Positions 1 to 5,597 of a DNA stretch of 5,597 nt are shown here, piece by piece. Below the pieces are notes generated by a model. The model had not been told where the DNA came from, did no database searches, and saw only the letters and a list, made by a program, of their open reading frames with translations. The position numbers and the translations under genes are program-made. Source of the DNA: Lentzea sp. (GTDB lineage Bacteria > Actinomycetota > Actinomycetes > Mycobacteriales > Pseudonocardiaceae); assembly GCA_030146905.1 (NCBI GenBank), contig JASLAV010000612.1, positions 1-5,597 on the forward strand, given 5' to 3'. Within the stretch, counting starts at the first letter, position 1. Each line of letters begins with the position of its first letter.

Positions 1-90
1 TTGCTCGTCTAACTCACGTTGACGTCTATGCCGCGCCACGGGGGACATCCTTGCCCTATCAACCGTCTCAAGTCGAGAGGCAAATATTCC

Positions 91-105
91 TCACGAAGTT
101 CGTGA
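91..105. promoter_or_regulatory. Operator-like 15-nt palindrome overlapping the -35 box
   Basis: Two perfect 7-nt arms, TCACGAA and TTCGTGA, flank a single central G. The right arm ends inside the proposed -35 hexamer (103-108) of the lipoprotein promoter, so a dimeric regulator bound here would compete with RNA polymerase. The arms and their position are seen directly; the role as an operator is inference. A chance palindrome cannot be excluded. Confidence 0.4.
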
Positions 106-130
106 ACCGTTGCCGGATCGTGTCCGTACT
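103..130 (+). promoter_or_regulatory. ECF-sigma-type promoter upstream of the lipoprotein gene
   Basis: The sequence reads TGAACC (103-108), exactly 16 nt, then CGTACT (125-130). This matches the general layout of extracytoplasmic-function sigma promoters and closely resembles the TGAACC-N16/17-CGT pattern described for mycobacterial SigL/SigK-type factors. Transcription would begin near 137, giving a leader of about 27 nt with a Shine-Dalgarno at 151-155. The match and spacing are seen; assignment to a particular sigma factor is inference, and no sigma gene lies in the window. Confidence 0.55.
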
Positions 131-163
131 CCTCGGTACCCGAGCCGAGAAAGGATCCAGCCG

Positions 164-760
164 ATGCGACGTGGACAGGCCATCACCGCTCTGGCGGCTC
201 TGGCTCTCAGCCTCACGGCGTGCGGCAGCACCCAGACCCCTCCCGGAGGGGCCGCGACGGGCGGCTTGCAGGCGAAACCGGCGGACGTGAGCGACTCGCT
301 GCTGCTGTTCATCTCCAACACCGAGCAGATGGGGTGGTTCGTCACCGACGGCGACGGGCTCCCGCTCTACCGCTACGACAAGGACGTTCCCAAGCCGTCC
401 AAGTCCAACTGCGACGGTGAGTGCGCGAAGGCGTGGAAGCCGGTCCTCGCGGACAAGACGCCGATGGCGACCGGGGTGGACCCCATCTCCATGGGCACCG
501 TGACCAGGTCGGACGGCAGCAAGCAGCTCACCATCGCCGGCTGGCCGCAGTACACCTACGCCGAGGACAAGGCGGCCGGTGACATGAAGGGCCAGGGGAA
601 GGGCGGTGTGTGGTTCGCCACTGCCCCCAACGGCGCCAAGATCACCGGCGGCAAGGCCCAGAACAACAGCAGGAGCAGCGGTACGCCGAGCACGTCCCCC
701 AGCTCGAAGACCGGTCAGGCGCCGCCGTCGGCGCCGCCGTCGAGCATCCCCGGCTACTGA
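164..760 (+). CDS. Secreted lipoprotein with two YxYxxD repeats (COG4315 / Lipoprotein_15 type)
   Basis: Predicted 198-residue lipoprotein, exported and anchored to the outer face of the membrane. The ATG at 164 is chosen because AAGGA (151-155) lies 8 nt upstream and the next residues form a clean lipoprotein signal: MRRGQ, a hydrophobic stretch, then lipobox LTAC with the lipidated Cys20. The mature part holds two copies of the family motif, Y69-R-Y71-D-K-D74 and Y130-T-Y132-A-E-D135. Between them lie C83-D-G-E-C87 and W91, matching the C..C..W segment common in this family; W150 follows the second copy. The last 33 residues are Ser/Pro/Thr/Gly-rich and look like a flexible wall-spanning tail. 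No CxxCH haem motif is present. The family's biochemical role is not established. An in-frame upstream ATG at 110 would bury the signal peptide and lacks a good ribosome site. It is the first gene of the cluster, 62 nt before the DUF4142 gene. Confidence 0.85.
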   Translation: MRRGQAITALAALALSLTACGSTQTPPGGAATGGLQAKPADVSDSLLLFISNTEQMGWFVTDGDGLPLYRYDKDVPKPSKSNCDGECAKAWKPVLADKTPMATGVDPISMGTVTRSDGSKQLTIAGWPQYTYAEDKAAGDMKGQGKGGVWFATAPNGAKITGGKAQNNSRSSGTPSTSPSSKTGQAPPSAPPSSIPGY

Positions 761-822
761 GCCCACCGCTGATGCGAATCCCCCCTCCCGACTTCCCCTT
801 GAACAACGAGGACATCAAGACG

Positions 823-1533
823 ATGACCAGAGCCCTCGCCACCGTCTTGGCGATGTTGTTCCTCTTCGCCGGGCTGACGCCCGCGGCCGCAGCGCAGCCC
901 GCGGACACCGGTGGAGTGCAGGACACCCCCTCGGGGCCGTTGACCGCGAACGACCGCGATCTGCTGGTGAAGGTGCGCCAGGCGGGCCTGTGGGAGATGC
1001 CGATGGGTGAGCTCACCGCCACCAAGGCATCGAACGCCAGGGTCAAGCAGATCGGCAAGATGATCATGCTCGACCACATGATGCTGGACGCGCTGACGAA
1101 GAAGACGGCGGCCCAGCTGGGCACGACCACCCCCGACGTGCCGAGCCCGGCGCAGCAGTCGTGGATGGAAGAGCTGAACGGTCTCGAAGGAGACGCCTTC
1201 GACCAGGCCTTCGTCGCACGGCTGCGCGCCGCGCACGGCCAGGTCTTCATGTTCATCGCGAAGGTGCGCTCCCAGACCCGCAACGACACCATCCGCGGGT
1301 TCGCCCAGGCCGGCATCGACGTGGTGATGAAGCACATGACGTTGCTGGAGAGCACGGGTCTCGCGGGTGACGCGTCCTTCGCGGAGCCCCAGCCCGCCGG
1401 CGGCATCATCAACGCGACCCTGGCCTCCGACGAGGGGCCGAACATGTGGGTGATCCTCACGGTCACCGCCGCGGGAGCCGTCCTCACGGTCCTCCTGCTC
1501 CGAGTTCTCCGCCCGCGACGACCGGTGCGGTGA
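823..1533 (+). CDS. Secreted, membrane-anchored DUF4142 protein (ferritin-like helical domain)
   Basis: Predicted 236-residue exported protein. Residues 1-24 form a signal peptide (MTRAL start, hydrophobic core, A-rich cleavage region near AAAA/QP). Residues about 40-178 match DUF4142: helix 1 with G-E-L-T-A-T-K-A-S, the D84-H85 pair, the L-x-G-x-x-F-D-x-x-F segment at 121-130, H138 and a final K-H (H171). Family structures are four-helix, ferritin-like bundles; no enzymatic role is established. After a short linker, residues about 209-226 are a hydrophobic helix followed by RVLRPRRPVR, so the domain should sit outside with a basic cytoplasmic stub. The ATG at 823 is chosen because GAGGA (808-812) precedes it and it starts directly at the signal peptide. 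In-frame ATG 772 or TTG 799 would add an unlikely polar N-terminus. It follows the lipoprotein gene by 62 nt in the same direction, so co-transcription is likely. Confidence 0.82.
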   Translation: MTRALATVLAMLFLFAGLTPAAAAQPADTGGVQDTPSGPLTANDRDLLVKVRQAGLWEMPMGELTATKASNARVKQIGKMIMLDHMMLDALTKKTAAQLGTTTPDVPSPAQQSWMEELNGLEGDAFDQAFVARLRAAHGQVFMFIAKVRSQTRNDTIRGFAQAGIDVVMKHMTLLESTGLAGDASFAEPQPAGGIINATLASDEGPNMWVILTVTAAGAVLTVLLLRVLRPRRPVR

Positions 1534-1612
1534 TTGCAGAACGACCCGTTGCACGACGGGAAACGGAGGTGGTGTCCCAAGGTCAGAGGCACTCCAACGC
1601 GGACCTGTTCCC

Positions 1613-1663
1613 ACCCGCCCGGCCCTGATGTGTCCACTCCTGCACCTGCGGGGCCGGGCGGGT
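1613..1663. terminator. Strong 13-bp GC hairpin between the DUF4142 and haem/ferredoxin genes
   Basis: ACCCGCCCGGCCC (1613-1625) is perfectly complementary to GGGCCGGGCGGGT (1651-1663), with a 25-nt loop. No T-run follows. It may be an actinomycete-style terminator without a U-tract, a partial attenuator, or an RNA stabiliser at a processing site, because it ends 35 nt before the next start codon. It also argues against translation beginning at ATG 1534. The pairing is seen; the function is inferred. Confidence 0.5.
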
Positions 1664-1685
1664 TCCCGCGAGAAAGTTCTTTCCC

Positions 1686-1691
1686 GGAGGA
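1686..1691 (+). promoter_or_regulatory. Shine-Dalgarno GGAGGA that decides the TTG start
   Basis: GGAGGA lies 7 nt before TTG 1699 and 4 nt before TTG 1696. It is the strongest ribosome site between 1534 and 1762 and the main reason for choosing a TTG start over ATG 1534 or ATG 1762. A small GAAAG-TT-CTTTC palindrome (1672-1683) sits immediately upstream. Confidence 0.6.
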
Positions 1692-1698
1692 AGAGTTG

Positions 1699-2526
1699 TT
1701 GTCGAGCCAGATTCCGCTCCTGGTGGCCCAGGCCTCCGAGTTCGACTCGGGTGTCAAGAAGATGGCCCAGATCTCCGCCAGGCTGGCTTACGTCCTGATG
1801 TGCGCCACCTTGTCCTGGGGTGTGCTGATCGCGACCGGGTGGGCCGAGAAGCTCACCGGGCGTGAAGGACTGAAGAACGGGCACATGGTGCTCGCCTCGC
1901 TGGCGATCGCGTTCGGCTGCGTCCACGCGTTCGCCTTCACGCTGATCCAGAACGGCACGTTCAGCTTCATCAAGCTCGTCCTGCCGTTCGTCGACGGCGG
2001 TCTGTTCCGGCACGCGCTGGGCATCCTCGGCCTGGAGGTCATGCTCGCGATCGCCGTGCTCGCCTCGATGAGGCACAAGGTCTTCTACCGCAAGTGGTTG
2101 CGGTTCCACCAGACGGCGTACATCGCGGTGGCGATCACCGTGGTGCACTCCTGGTTCGGCGCCATCGCGAACGGCAACCTGTCCGTTCTCTGGCTGGCCG
2201 GCCTCACCGTCCTCGTCCCCACCGCGACCCTGGCGCTGGCCCGGTTCCTCCCGCCGGAGGTCCTGGTGCGCATCGGCATGCTCGACGTCGAGCGCGGCAA
2301 GGAACCCGGCGTCGGCGAAGGCGACGCGATGGACGTGAGCGTCAACAACGAGAAGTGCCACCGCTACGGCACCTGCCAGGCGGAGGCCCCTGACGTCTTC
2401 CAGCTGATCGAGGACAACCGCCTGACCTACAACCGCCGGCCGCCGGAAGAGCACTTCGCTCAGGCTCGGCAGGCAGCCCGCGCGTGCCCCATGCGCGCGA
2501 TCGAGATCAGGGAGCGAGTGAAGTGA
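1699..2526 (+). CDS. Haem-b transmembrane protein (ferric-reductase-like) fused to a C-terminal ferredoxin domain
   Basis: Predicted 275-residue inner-membrane electron carrier. Five hydrophobic helices lie at about 29-47, 61-83, 106-123, 138-157 and 163-181. Helix 2 carries H62 and H76 (13 residues between); the fourth-helix region carries H137 and H150 (12 between). This is the spacing of the two haem-ligating His pairs in NOX/FRE ferric-reductase-type proteins, so two stacked b haems are predicted. The basic 125-135 loop and the positive-inside rule place the C-terminus in the cytoplasm. Residues about 210-272 are a small ferredoxin: C220-H-R-Y-G-T-C226, then C263-P264, with Tyr where a second cluster Cys would sit. 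That is typical of [3Fe-4S] or variant [4Fe-4S] actinobacterial ferredoxins. The start is TTG 1699, with GGAGGA (1686-1691) 7 nt upstream; TTG 1696 and ATG 1762 (254 aa, weak ribosome site) are alternatives. ATG 1534 is rejected. It overlaps the next gene by 4 nt. Confidence 0.82.
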   Translation: MSSQIPLLVAQASEFDSGVKKMAQISARLAYVLMCATLSWGVLIATGWAEKLTGREGLKNGHMVLASLAIAFGCVHAFAFTLIQNGTFSFIKLVLPFVDGGLFRHALGILGLEVMLAIAVLASMRHKVFYRKWLRFHQTAYIAVAITVVHSWFGAIANGNLSVLWLAGLTVLVPTATLALARFLPPEVLVRIGMLDVERGKEPGVGEGDAMDVSVNNEKCHRYGTCQAEAPDVFQLIEDNRLTYNRRPPEEHFAQARQAARACPMRAIEIRERVK

Positions 2527-3899
2527 GCGAACGGATCGTGGTCGTCGGCGGCGGACTCGGAGGAGTCCGTTCCGCGGAACGGCTGCGGGAGATGGGTTTC
2601 GACGGGCAGATCACGATCCTGTCCGCCGAGAGGCACCTCCCTTACCACCGCCCGGCACTGTCGAAGCAGGTCATCACCGGTGCGTGGCACCCGGACGACG
2701 CCCTGCTGTCGTTCGCGGGCGACCTCGACGCCGAGTGGCGGCTGAACTCACCCGCCCTGCACCTGGACCCGAAGCTGCAGTCCGTCTGGGTGCCGGGCGG
2801 CGAGGAGATCAAGTACGACGGCCTCATCATCGCCACCGGCGTCGACGCCAGGGCGATGGGCGGGGCGCCGCGCCACGACCCGCGGGTGCACGTGCTGCGG
2901 ACGTTGGACGACGCCGTCGCGATCCGCAGGAACATCCGGCAGTCGCAGGGCCTCGTCGCCGTCATCGGCGGCGGGTTCATCGGCTGCGAGCTCGCCTGTT
3001 CTGTTCGTCACATGGGCCGCGACGTGGCGCTGATCGTGCGCTCGCCGGCGTTGCTGGGCGGTGTCGTCGGCGACGACATCGGCAAGAAGATCACCGAGGC
3101 GCACATCGAGCACGGCGTCCGCCTGGCCACCGGCGTCGGCATCAAGCACTGGGTGCGCCAGCCGGGCGGCATCGGCATCCACCTGAGCGACGGCCAGGTC
3201 TTCTTCGCGTCCTGCGTCGTGCTGGCCGTCGGTGCCTCACCGGCCGTCGACTGGCTGCGCGGCTCCGGCCTGATCATCGAGGACGGCGTGCTCTGCGACG
3301 CGACCAACCACGTGGTGGGCGCCGAGAACATCGTCGCCTGCGGTGACGTAGCCCGCTGGCCCAACCTGCGCTTCAACGGCGTGGTCCGCCGAGTCGAGCA
3401 CTGGCTGAACGCGGTCGAGGGCGGCCGTGCCGCGGCCGAGAACCTCCTGGTCGGCCGCTCGCACGCCAAGCCGTACACGCCGGTGCCGCGCTTCTGGACC
3501 GAGCAGTACGGCATGCGGGTCCAGGGAGCGGGACTGCCGGTGCTGGGCACCGACACCACCGACGTCAACGGCCTGACCGGCTTCATCGCCGACGGCAAGC
3601 TCGTCGGCATCGTCGGCCTGGAGTCGCCCGGCAAGATCATCAGCGAGACCCCGGAACTCTTCCGGCAGAACCAGGTGGACCCGAACCGTTCCGTGTGGAC
3701 GCAGCCGGAGCCCGTCGCGGCCGAGGCACCGGAGGTTCCGGCCACCACCCAGGTCCCGGTTCCCGAACCGGTCGCCGCCCTCGCATCATCCGTTCCCCCG
3801 TCCGTCTCGTCGTCGATGTCCCCGCCATTGGAGCGGCGGAGGCACTCGCGGTCGAGGCCGGAGATGGTGCGAATGGGCGGAGGACGCGCGAGGCCCTAA
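2523..3899 (+). CDS. FAD-dependent NAD(P)H:ferredoxin reductase (rhodocoxin/putidaredoxin reductase type) with a low-complexity tail
   Basis: Predicted 458-residue cytoplasmic flavoprotein that should pass electrons from NAD(P)H to the ferredoxin domain encoded just upstream. The FAD Rossmann motif is G9-G-G-L-G-G14 with acidic E36. P40-Y-H-R-P-A-L-S-K48 matches the reductase signature, and ATG (105 region) and C273-G-D275 are the usual FAD contacts. The NAD(P) motif is G149-G-G-F-I-G154. F324-W-T-E-Q-Y-G resembles the FWSDQY segment of the C-terminal reductase domain. The family is usually near 400 residues; here residues 393-458 form an extra Pro/Ala/Val/Ser-rich tail ending in a basic RRRHSRSR stretch. 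At the second Rossmann beta-strand, V172-R173 replaces the acidic residue common in NADH enzymes. The GTG at 2523 is chosen because it forms a GTGA overlap with the preceding stop and has AGGGAG (2509-2514) 8 nt upstream, implying translational coupling. ATG 2484 would lie inside the ferredoxin domain. Confidence 0.88.
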   Translation: MSERIVVVGGGLGGVRSAERLREMGFDGQITILSAERHLPYHRPALSKQVITGAWHPDDALLSFAGDLDAEWRLNSPALHLDPKLQSVWVPGGEEIKYDGLIIATGVDARAMGGAPRHDPRVHVLRTLDDAVAIRRNIRQSQGLVAVIGGGFIGCELACSVRHMGRDVALIVRSPALLGGVVGDDIGKKITEAHIEHGVRLATGVGIKHWVRQPGGIGIHLSDGQVFFASCVVLAVGASPAVDWLRGSGLIIEDGVLCDATNHVVGAENIVACGDVARWPNLRFNGVVRRVEHWLNAVEGGRAAAENLLVGRSHAKPYTPVPRFWTEQYGMRVQGAGLPVLGTDTTDVNGLTGFIADGKLVGIVGLESPGKIISETPELFRQNQVDPNRSVWTQPEPVAAEAPEVPATTQVPVPEPVAALASSVPPSVSSSMSPPLERRRHSRSRPEMVRMGGGRARP

Positions 3900-4060
3900 C
3901 CAGGTCGAGGAGAGAAGTGCCTGCCGGCACAGGGCAAGCGGGGACGGGCGAACTCCGACGTCGCTCCGCGTGGCCGGGTGGCGGACCTGTGACGTCACGC
4001 GGGCGATGCGTTCGTTTCCCGCGCCGGTAGGTGGTCTCCCCTTCTCGTGCGTCACCGGCG

Positions 4061-4106
4061 GTGTGGCGGCTCGGTGGGCTCCCGAGCCGTCACACTGGCC
4101 CTTTTT
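4061..4106 (+). terminator. Rho-independent terminator downstream of the redox genes
   Basis: A 14-position stem pairs 4061-4074 with 4082-4095 (core CGGCTCGG/CCGAGCCG plus GTGTG/CACAC, with a single G-U pair between the two blocks). The loop is the 7 nt TGGGCTC, and TTTTT follows at 4102-4106 after a 6-nt spacer. It lies about 160 nt past the reductase stop codon and is in the right orientation to end that transcript. Confidence 0.72.
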
Positions 4107-4189
4107 GGGGCGTTGTACGAGGGGTGGGCTGGCCTCTTCTCGGGGCGGGTCACGTACCGAGCGTGCGGGTCGACTTTCGGGGGCGGGCC

Positions 4190-4223
4190 ACCTCCCGCGA
4201 GACGAGACGGTCCGTCTCGTTTT
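4190..4223 (+). terminator. Second terminator-like hairpin with T-run
   Basis: ACGAGACG (4202-4209), loop GTC, CGTCTCGT (4213-4220), then a short T-run ending at 4223. An outer arm ACCTCCC (4190-4196) can also pair with GGGAGGT (4227-4233), making a compound structure. It lies about 100 nt beyond the first terminator and may be a backup on the plus strand. Confidence 0.55.
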
Positions 4224-4317
4224 GGTGGGAGGTCTCCTCATGCCGTGCGAGTTGCGTTCCAGCGTGGCTGGTCAGGCAGCGGACGATGCGTGGGGGTTCA
4301 TCGCCGCTTCGCGTCGA

Positions 4318-4443
4318 TTGCGATTGGGGCTTGACTTCGGGGCCCTTGCGAGGCGCTGGACGGGCGGGAAAAGGTCGGATGCTCCGCACCCGCCCGAACC
4401 CGGCAGGTAGAGCCTCGCACCCAAAGTCAAGCCCCAATCGCAA
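4318..4443. repeat. 126-nt rod-like inverted repeat with perfect 20-bp termini
   Basis: TTGCGATTGGGGCTTGACTT (4318-4337) is the exact reverse complement of 4424-4443. Inward, further blocks pair: GGG/CCC (4339-4341 with 4420-4422), TGCGAGGC/GCCTCGCA (4347-4354 with 4412-4419), CGGGCGGG/CCCGCCCG (4361-4368 with 4389-4396) and an apical CGGA-TGC-TCCG (4376-4386). Together about 43 base pairs form one long hairpin. No obvious target-site duplication flanks it. It could be a bidirectional terminator between convergent genes, a MITE-like or REP-like element, or a structured RNA. The pairing is seen; the identity is unknown. Confidence 0.7.
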
Positions 4444-4549
4444 AGCCGAAGGCTTCACCGGCTCCCACCGGTTCATAGGGCTGTACGGCTCGCTTCGCAT
4501 CGCCACACTGGGTCGGGACGGGCGGCAGGGCGGTCTCACCTGCTGCTTG

Positions 4550-5533
4550 TCAGCGTTGGCGGTGGCGGGGGAACGCCTGGCGGTAGTCGCTGGGCGAGGT
4601 TCCCACCTGCTTGACGAAGTGGTGGCGCAGGTTGTTCGCCGTGCCCAGGCCGCTCAGGCCCGCGATCTTCTCCACCGACAGGTCGGTCGACTCCAGCAGT
4701 GCCTGGGCTCTGGCGATGCGTTCGTTGAGCAGCCACTGCAGCGGTGTCGTGCCGGTGGTGGCGTGGAGGCGGCGGTAGAAGGTTCGGGGGCTCATAGTGG
4801 CTCGGCGGGCCAGGTCCTCGATCGTCAGCGGTTCGTCCAGGCGGGCTCGGGCCCAGTCGAGGACCGAGGTCAGGCCCTGGTCGTCGTTCGCGGGGACCGA
4901 GAGGTCGATCACCTGGCTTCGGTTACCTGGGCGGTGTCCTGGCACGATCATCCTGCGGGCCAGTTGGTTGGCCACGTGGGCGCCCAGGTCTCGGCGCACC
5001 AGGTGCAGGCAGAGGTCGAGGCCTGCTGTCATGCCCGCGCTGGTCAGGACGTCGCCCTCGTCCACGTAGAGCACAGAGTCGTCCACCTCGACCTTCGGGT
5101 AGCGCTCTGCCAGCAGGGCGGTGTGCATCCAGTGGGCGGTTGCCCTGCGTCCGTCCAGCAGGCCGGCTTCTGCCAGTGCGTACGCTCCGACGCACTGCGA
5201 GACGATTCGTGCGCCGTTGTCGTGGGCGTCGCGTAGGGCCGAGACCAGTTCTGGTGGGACTGGGGCGTTGTCCTCCAGGACTTCTTCTGGCACCCATGAC
5301 ACGAAGACGGTGTCCGCGTTCACCACGTCGTCCAGTCCGTGGGTGGTGTGCACGGTGAAGCCTGGGCCGTCGCCTCGTGTGCTGGTTCCCGTGCCGCACA
5401 ACCACAAGTCGTACCAAGGGTCGGCCAGGTCCGGCTGGGGTGTGCCGAAGATCGCTGAGGGGATGCCCAGTTCGTAGAGGTCCATGACACCGAAGTCGCC
5501 GGGAACGATCAGGGCCACGGATCCAGCGCTCAT
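4550..5533 (-). CDS. GlxA-family transcriptional regulator (DJ-1/PfpI domain + AraC-type HTH)
   Basis: Predicted 327-residue cytoplasmic transcription factor. Residues about 5-195 form a DJ-1/PfpI-like glutamine-amidotransferase fold, opening with S-V-A-L-I-V-P-G. The nucleophile-elbow segment S-Q-C114-V-G-A-Y is followed by A-E-A-G-L-L-D-G-R-R-A-T-A-H134-W, typical of the GlxA group. Residues about 222-321 are an AraC domain with two helix-turn-helix units: L-T-I-E-D-L-A-R-R-A near 237-262 and L-S-V-E-K-I-A-G-L near 285-311, ending in the usual G-x-S-P-S-D-Y-R. Length is normal for the family. The start is ATG at 5533; a GTG at 5539 in the same frame adds two residues. TAGGCT, a TANNNT-type -10 box (5546-5541), ends 7 nt before the ATG, suggesting a leaderless transcript; no convincing Shine-Dalgarno is seen. 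It is convergent with the redox genes, so its target is more likely a divergent gene beyond the right edge. Its ligand is unknown. Confidence 0.88.
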   Translation of the reverse strand: MSAGSVALIVPGDFGVMDLYELGIPSAIFGTPQPDLADPWYDLWLCGTGTSTRGDGPGFTVHTTHGLDDVVNADTVFVSWVPEEVLEDNAPVPPELVSALRDAHDNGARIVSQCVGAYALAEAGLLDGRRATAHWMHTALLAERYPKVEVDDSVLYVDEGDVLTSAGMTAGLDLCLHLVRRDLGAHVANQLARRMIVPGHRPGNRSQVIDLSVPANDDQGLTSVLDWARARLDEPLTIEDLARRATMSPRTFYRRLHATTGTTPLQWLLNERIARAQALLESTDLSVEKIAGLSGLGTANNLRHHFVKQVGTSPSDYRQAFPRHRQR

Positions 5534-5540
5534 GGGCACC

Positions 5541-5546
5541 AGCCTA
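5541..5546 (-). promoter_or_regulatory. Candidate -10 box for a leaderless regulator mRNA
   Basis: Read on the minus strand, TAGGCT fits the actinobacterial TANNNT -10 pattern. Exactly 7 nt separate it from ATG 5533, which would place the transcription start at or next to the start codon. No good -35 hexamer is visible at 17-18 nt upstream. Confidence 0.35.
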
Positions 5547-5597
5547 TGGCAGGAATTTGGTGAAAGGGGTCATTCCGGTCACTGGTTGGGTTGATCA

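Follow-up and report, generated by a model that had tools for sequence, protein, structure and literature searches.

A candidate electron-export module linked to a SigL-type promoter in Lentzea and related actinomycetes

Four genes at the Lentzea locus

The subject of this study is a stretch of 5,597 nucleotides from Lentzea sp. (GenBank assembly GCA_030146905.1, contig JASLAV010000612.1, positions 1 to 5,597 of the forward strand), which we refer to as the window. Between positions 164 and 3899 it carries four genes, all on the plus strand, for a lipoprotein (LipoY), a DUF4142 protein, a membrane haem protein with a ferredoxin domain (HemFd) and a ferredoxin reductase (FdR), which together may move electrons from the cytosol to the outer face of the membrane. 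Coordinates and profile matches agree with an earlier sequence-only reading that had placed this set here on one strand, and the four-gene observation is confirmed as real. The operon and its promoter consist of the following features.

103-130, plus strand: SigL-type promoter, with the -35 element TGAACC at 103-108, a 16-base spacer and the -10 element CGTACT at 125-130
164-760, plus strand: LipoY, a PF03640 (Lipoprotein_15) protein with two repeats, a YxYxxD motif and a CX3C pair
823-1533, plus strand: DUF4142 protein with a signal-like N-terminus, a predicted ferritin-like four-helix bundle and a C-terminal membrane helix
1696-2526, plus strand: HemFd, with about five membrane helices, two putative bis-His haem sites and a [3Fe-4S]-type ferredoxin domain predicted to be cytosolic
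2523-3899, plus strand: FdR, a ferredoxin reductase that binds FAD and NAD(P)H, belongs to the oxygenase/rubredoxin-reductase type and ends in a tail of low complexity

LipoY scored 91.2 bits against the curated PF03640 profile (cut-off 24.4). Its lipobox ends at Cys20 and YRYDKD occupies residues 69-74, in keeping with the YxYxxD lipoprotein that had been claimed; the CX3C pair (C83 and C87) is found without exception in the 50 module copies shorter than 230 residues that were aligned. Against SCO0930_lipo the score was 162.5 bits, under the cut-off of 275. The anchored DUF4142 protein of the earlier reading was likewise recovered, with 77.5 bits against the curated PF13628 profile (cut-off 27), a signal-like N-terminal helix and a C-terminal helix at residues 208-229. 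Residues E58, H85, H138, H171 and E176 are conserved, and the predicted model is a ferritin-like bundle nearest to DUF305/CopM, in which this Glu/His set probably binds a metal. Searching the PDB with the sequences of both proteins yielded nothing at E up to 10. A tandem copy was noted in the Lentzea genome G001 (contig C108, 7753-8817), where two DUF4142 matches share one open frame of 462 residues.

HemFd likely starts at a TTG at 1696 or 1699, downstream of GGAGG (1686-1690), ends at 2526 and is 98% identical to its counterpart in Lentzea indica. It had been read as a haem-b protein with a ferredoxin domain. The invariant histidine pairs and the Fer4 C-terminus uphold this in outline, with two refinements: the match to Pfam Ferric_reduct (PF01794) stays below threshold, and the ferredoxin has three cysteines. 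H62/H76 (HX13H) and H137/H150 (HX12H) are invariant in 26 aligned sequences, and both spacings occur in all 100 haem proteins of the FdR-type loci surveyed below; in a shuffled control on the first set of haem proteins both were present in 210 of 5000 cases. PF01794 is found in many relatives according to precomputed annotation. Because of the invariant pairs, together with the fold match, HemFd may be read as a dihaem protein. Its C-terminus corresponds to Fer4_13/Fer4_15, and the cysteines C220, C226 and C263 follow a [3Fe-4S] pattern (CxxYxxC...CP), with a non-Cys residue at the variable position of CX2XX2C...CP as in P450-type ferredoxins. The nearest solved relative of this domain is the tail of a CYP51 chain (6mcw).

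FdR overlaps the HemFd gene by 4 bases and scored 170.7 bits against Pyr_redox_2, which bears out the coupled FAD ferredoxin reductase that had been proposed. It contains FAD and NAD(P) dinucleotide folds of the oxygenase type; the cut-off for Reductase_C was not reached (17.4 bits versus 25), while two relatives scored 31.8 and 31.7. Solved relatives are 6tuk (2e-49), TodA (3ef6, 2e-43) and BphA4 (1d7y, 2e-40). Use of NADPH is suggested by the residue that closes the second strand (beta-2) of the NAD(P) fold: 74 of 99 module copies have Arg there, and only four an acidic residue. Long C-terminal extensions of FdR with no further Pfam domain were seen in L075 (6840-9755, 971 residues) and L090 (2765-5995, 1076 residues), two of the loci introduced in the next section.

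Conservation, control and a second electron input

Conservation was surveyed over 100 distinct loci, namely 24 regions of a first set and 80 fetched regions (L063-L142) minus four duplicates (L069, L073, L079, L107) that were removed before counting. The fetched loci were hand-picked among the matches listed in a family-wide search, leaning to loci outside Lentzea, and owing to the kinship among the loci their counts cannot be treated as independent. A gene was regarded as lying beside the haem gene if it was on the same strand and at most 3.6 kilobases (kb) away; L016, which reaches a contig end, was counted as a miss. By this measure the haem gene is accompanied by FdR in 96 loci, counting a weak partial match in L071, by DUF4142 in 87 and by LipoY in 68 (67 plus L001, found by tblastn), and the linkage of LipoY is looser than that of DUF4142. 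In the sequence-only reading such a survey had been named as a possible refutation; its outcome speaks for that reading, the exported proteins being frequent companions of the redox pair. A second, longer LipoY gene lies on the opposite strand, several kb off, in L117-L119, L123, L126, L131, L134, L136 and L139; the copy of L118, the only one tested, is of the SCO0930 type (363 bits versus 275).

Where the upstream sequence is long enough, which applies to 22 Lentzea-type loci (one of them recorded as Nocardia), the four genes always stand in order. Over the whole survey the order LipoY, DUF4142, haem protein with fused ferredoxin, FdR was found in 40 loci (41 with L001), the LipoY-DUF4142 order with the ferredoxin encoded apart in 17, DUF4142 followed by the fused haem protein and FdR in 16 (15 without L001), LipoY placed after FdR in 8, a fusion of LipoY with DUF4142 in 2 (L131 and L136; Pfam confirms both domains in each) and other arrangements in 17. 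In 69 loci the ferredoxin forms part of the haem protein and in 28 it has a gene of its own, the form differing among lineages. L024 (Kutzneria) has two FdR copies and no match to LipoY or DUF4142. Four genomes carry 1-5 PF03640 proteins and 3-6 DUF4142 matches apiece; as both families are this few per genome and yet stand repeatedly together beside the haem gene, the gene order goes beyond chance. A chance neighbourhood was rejected on the conserved order, the survey counts and the NuoF-type loci described below. FAD oxidases adjoin the module in L096 (8249-9694) and L192 (1554-3026), one of them cytokinin-dehydrogenase-like and one berberine-type with a sub-threshold Tat signal match.

Tallies from genome searches are lower bounds, because only the top candidates per genome were scored (8 in the family-wide and 6 in the class-wide haem search, 7 for DUF4142, 13 for NuoF). 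The haem protein, fused or split, occurs in at least 114 of 297 genomes of the family-wide search and in at least 7 of 394 genomes of a class-wide sample, including the Lentzea that served as the centre of that sample. The six other class-wide genomes have the haem protein, the ferredoxin and FdR (partial in L152), with no LipoY or DUF4142 in the stretches read.

The promoter of the window fits TGAACC-N16-CGT, which we take to be the mycobacterial SigL consensus, and 33 bases separate its -10 element from the start codon of LipoY. TGAACC-N16-CGTA stands near the first module gene in 66 of the 100 loci, and other spacers of 10-22 bases give 0 or 1. Three of these matches (L024, L121, L125) were discounted as they overlap the FdR coding start; the remaining 63 loci all have a sigma gene too. 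L001 is outside the 66 although the motif precedes its LipoY, which the open reading frame caller had missed. In relatives a divergent gene for an extracytoplasmic function (ECF) sigma factor, followed by an anti-sigma gene, lies just upstream of the operon, in a position beyond the edge of the window. A divergent gene matching the sigma profile was counted in 78 loci; the profiles used to count sigma and anti-sigma genes had been derived from these same loci. The L063 sigma factor, the only one tested, passed NCBIfam PRK09645 (203.8, cut-off 202) and matches SigL of Mycobacterium tuberculosis (6dv9, 2e-32). In L105, L112, L122 and L137 the haem gene stands without FdR opposite a sigma gene that matches this profile, which would suggest a stand-alone form.

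The anti-sigma protein of L001 carries the zinc motif HX3CX2C and weakly matches RslA (3hug, E 0.0025). According to an excerpt of PMC2877774, oxidised RslA sheds its zinc and binds SigL 8-fold less tightly. A regulator that senses oxidation seems to turn the operon on. A wider search with TGAACCG-N15-CGTA gave 14 sites in two genomes (Lentzea G002 and the family member G173), compared with 2 for the reversed pattern. Eleven of the 14 lie 33-443 bases ahead of genes for proteins that, judged by eye, are seemingly exported. Besides the two modules, these comprise two more LipoY, one DUF305 and one thioredoxin-like lipoprotein, a protein with DUF3455 and proteins of the cell-wall or binding kind. 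The other three precede genes without an obvious export signal. Mpt53 of mycobacteria is a secreted thioredoxin-like protein. Its gene, mpt53, belongs to the mycobacterial SigL regulon (PMC9469519, in the part consulted), and the candidate regulon content fits a role in extracytoplasmic redox upkeep.

A second genome group, met through the class-wide DUF4142 search and probably including Nonomuraea, shares the exported half and has a different electron input. Its gene order is the SigL pair, the promoter, DUF4142 (sometimes LipoY), then a DUF1996 protein, a second haem protein and an FMN/4Fe-4S protein resembling NuoF, with a ferredoxin domain fused at its end; other NuoF-type loci are arranged differently, with no sigma pair or no promoter seen nearby. 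The second haem protein has both HX13H and HX12H in 33 of 33 cases and matches Pfam Ferric_reduct weakly (16.4-18.9 bits versus 28). To avoid circularity the NuoF protein was used as the sole query, and it was found in at least 50 of 121 genomes of that order. Twenty loci fetched by NuoF alone, hand-picked among the 53 matches listed with already-fetched genomes and the weakest three excluded, contain DUF4142 in 17 and the haem protein in 18 cases. With the 18 regions fetched by DUF4142, from which L200-L202 (no haem or NuoF gene listed) were kept out, 35 NuoF-type loci hold the haem protein in 33, DUF4142 in 32, DUF1996 in 28, the sigma gene in 24 and LipoY in 10 cases. DUF1996 genes also occur in 22 of the 100 FdR-type loci. 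Since the NuoF-type loci retain DUF4142 and often the control, it is the input half that is exchanged, and this swap is the strongest evidence that electrons may end at DUF4142/LipoY. Gene content and order, fusions and splits, the swapped input, the promoter and sigma linkage, the ligand patterns and the predicted folds are all results of the present analysis.

Proposed electron path and competing explanations

We consider it likely, with a probability of about 0.62, that the operon, controlled by an ECF sigma factor of the SigL type, encodes a module for electron export across the membrane which serves redox upkeep of the envelope. The electron-transfer steps, topology, metal and purpose that we infer are as follows. 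Electrons would pass from NAD(P)H to the FAD of FdR and on to the three-cysteine ferredoxin domain of HemFd, whose cluster would deliver them into a NOX/MsrQ-type core, first to the b haem on the inner side (H62/H137) and next to the one on the outer side (H76/H150). The outer haem would then reduce the exported, membrane-anchored DUF4142 bundle, with LipoY as a lipid-anchored partner. The purpose would most likely be reductive upkeep of the outer membrane face in oxidative envelope stress, acting on a bound metal, a peroxide or an oxidised protein. The electron-export interpretation given in the sequence-only reading is thereby supported, with the electron path, the haem content and the acceptor as its putative parts. 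A wider proposal is possible, though we regard it as rather doubtful: the loci might form a new extracytoplasmic redox class with SigL-type oxidation sensing and an interchangeable input (FdR or NuoF), in which DUF4142 with PF03640 and DUF1996 would be electron-accepting enzymes, e.g. a membrane-tethered peroxidase or metal reductase.

Several observations weigh against the proposed export module. Thirteen of the 100 loci are without DUF4142 and 32 without LipoY, so that neither is strictly required, and four haem proteins (L105, L112, L122, L137) have no FdR. In 15 loci the sigma gene is present with no motif near the first called gene. A further 13, of the order DUF4142, fused haem protein, FdR, are without motif, sigma and anti-sigma gene nearby and, as all three are lacking, are under another control. 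DUF4142 occurs away from the module as well: within about 1.5 kb, none of 14 further loci (L171-L184, short stretches, three of them extended by L200-L202) has a gene for LipoY, the sigma factor or the haem protein, and PF03640 proteins are also found apart. Because the unlinked DUF4142 copies carry the same conserved Glu/His set, this set is not specific to the system, and a module-specific metal site was rejected. As to the predicted structures, HemFd scored 25.7 bits against Ferric_reduct (cut-off 28), its model is of moderate confidence (pLDDT 72.8), and Foldseek gave a best membrane match at E 0.029 and none at E <= 0.001, the membrane part resembling SpNOX in a tie with cytochrome b561 and STEAP. 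The DUF4142 model gave nothing at E <= 0.001 either. One must also keep in mind that the potential of a [3Fe-4S] cluster may lie too high for it to reduce a b haem of low potential, and that the analysis is wholly sequence-based.

Among the alternatives, the outer haem could act as a metal reductase for uptake or detoxification, converting Fe(III) or Cu(II) while DUF4142 and LipoY bind or buffer the metal. The DUF4142 model is nearest to DUF305/CopM, a copper binder, a DUF305 lipoprotein stands under the same promoter in Lentzea G002, STEAP and Dcytb are among the fold neighbours of the HemFd membrane part, and a passage of PMC10449499 describes poor growth of an M. tuberculosis sigL mutant at low iron. 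We nevertheless hold this explanation to be unlikely, as inspection by eye of the 40 largest neighbour clusters, made without a family search, revealed no metal transporter, the conserved set of DUF4142 occurs outside the module too, and the SigL/RslA link points more to oxidation than to metal limitation. That oxygen is the acceptor and superoxide is made outside the cell, as by a bacterial NOX, is quite improbable. HemFd lacks the C-terminal FNR-type FAD/NADPH dehydrogenase domain of NOX, for which reason a NOX proper was rejected; oxygen requires no conserved exported partners, yet DUF4142 is present in most loci, and control by an oxidation-type sensor better suits defence than oxidant production.

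HemFd might instead exchange electrons with menaquinone, with the exported proteins drawing on the pool. MsrQ-like proteins are widely conserved in actinobacterial flavinylation clusters (PMC8238504, section on these clusters), but a dedicated cytosolic reductase and ferredoxin overlap or fuse with the haem protein, and no FMN-binding gene lies near the module in four genomes, which leaves this explanation a slim chance. It is hardly credible that the ferredoxin and FdR chiefly serve cytosolic P450s or oxygenases and that the neighbourhood is incidental: their nearest solved relatives, the CYP51 chain tail and oxygenase reductases, point that way, but the ferredoxin is covalently joined to a membrane haem protein in the majority of loci, the order is conserved across genera, and NuoF replaces the input half while the exported half stays.

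Two further features of the window lie outside the module. A GlxA/FtrA-like regulator with DJ-1/PfpI and AraC helix-turn-helix domains is encoded at 4550-5539 on the minus strand and reaches 340.4 bits against PRK09393, under the cut-off of 425. Between the operon and this convergent gene sits an inverted repeat with 24-base arms (4318-4341 and 4420-4443), 96% complementary and 78 bases apart.

Comparison with known systems

NOX/SpNOX, STEAP and MsrQ (YedZ) have membrane helices that hold two bis-His b haems at HX13H/HX12H spacings, as predicted for HemFd. From these members of the ferric reductase domain superfamily the module differs in that a ferredoxin and a separate FdR replace the FNR-type domain and in its exported DUF4142/LipoY partners. 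The closest description found is that of Meheust et al. 2021 (PMC8238504), whose section on MsrQ-like clusters reports that the actinobacterial ones typically hold an FMN-binding (flavinylated) protein and that 31 have a NuoF-like protein. As proposed for the module, these clusters combine a PF01794-type dihaem protein with NAD(P)H-driven electron export; that section mentions no DUF4142, PF03640 or SigL. FMN_bind (PF04205) was found near the module in none of four genomes (two without any, two with one distant copy), on which ground an ApbE-flavinylated MsrQ-like system was rejected.

Since such clusters have been described, NAD(P)H-driven dihaem export in Actinobacteria is not new. The earlier statement that no characterised pathway with this gene set is known has to be qualified in view of the MsrQ-like clusters with NuoF. 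In the literature searched, in which subscription journals are thinly covered, no description of the set was recognised, and the ferredoxin and FdR input, the DUF4142/LipoY partners and the SigL control were not found. The module is a real and apparently undescribed variant of electron export by ferric reductase domains.

In the MsrPQ-Fre system of Escherichia coli a cytosolic flavoprotein may likewise be the electron source of a dihaem membrane protein whose substrate is an extracytoplasmic partner (PMC5676040, in the part consulted). The module has another reductase family, an intervening ferredoxin, and a ferritin-like protein and a lipoprotein instead of the molybdopterin reductase; no MsrP was recognised by eye among the neighbour clusters, where no family search was made. 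CopM/DUF305 resembles the DUF4142 model as a ferritin-like bundle, with an identity of only 8-15% among the alignments listed. DUF4142 and PF03640 are exported families without known function in the family libraries used. Their linkage to two NAD(P)H-to-haem inputs and one sigma type leads to the prediction that they receive cytosolic electrons, and the new redox class, if true, would assign them a function. The operon would also offer a genetically simple setting for how Gram-positive bacteria hold the outer membrane face reduced.

SigL and RslA of M. tuberculosis are the closest solved relatives of the module-linked sigma and anti-sigma proteins, and the parallel may extend to the regulon, with mpt53 in mycobacteria (PMC9469519, same part) and a thioredoxin-like lipoprotein carrying the motif in Lentzea. 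Seen next to NOX, the operon would be a NOX-like system built from a P450-type ferredoxin and its reductase, and could illustrate the modularity of such electron chains.

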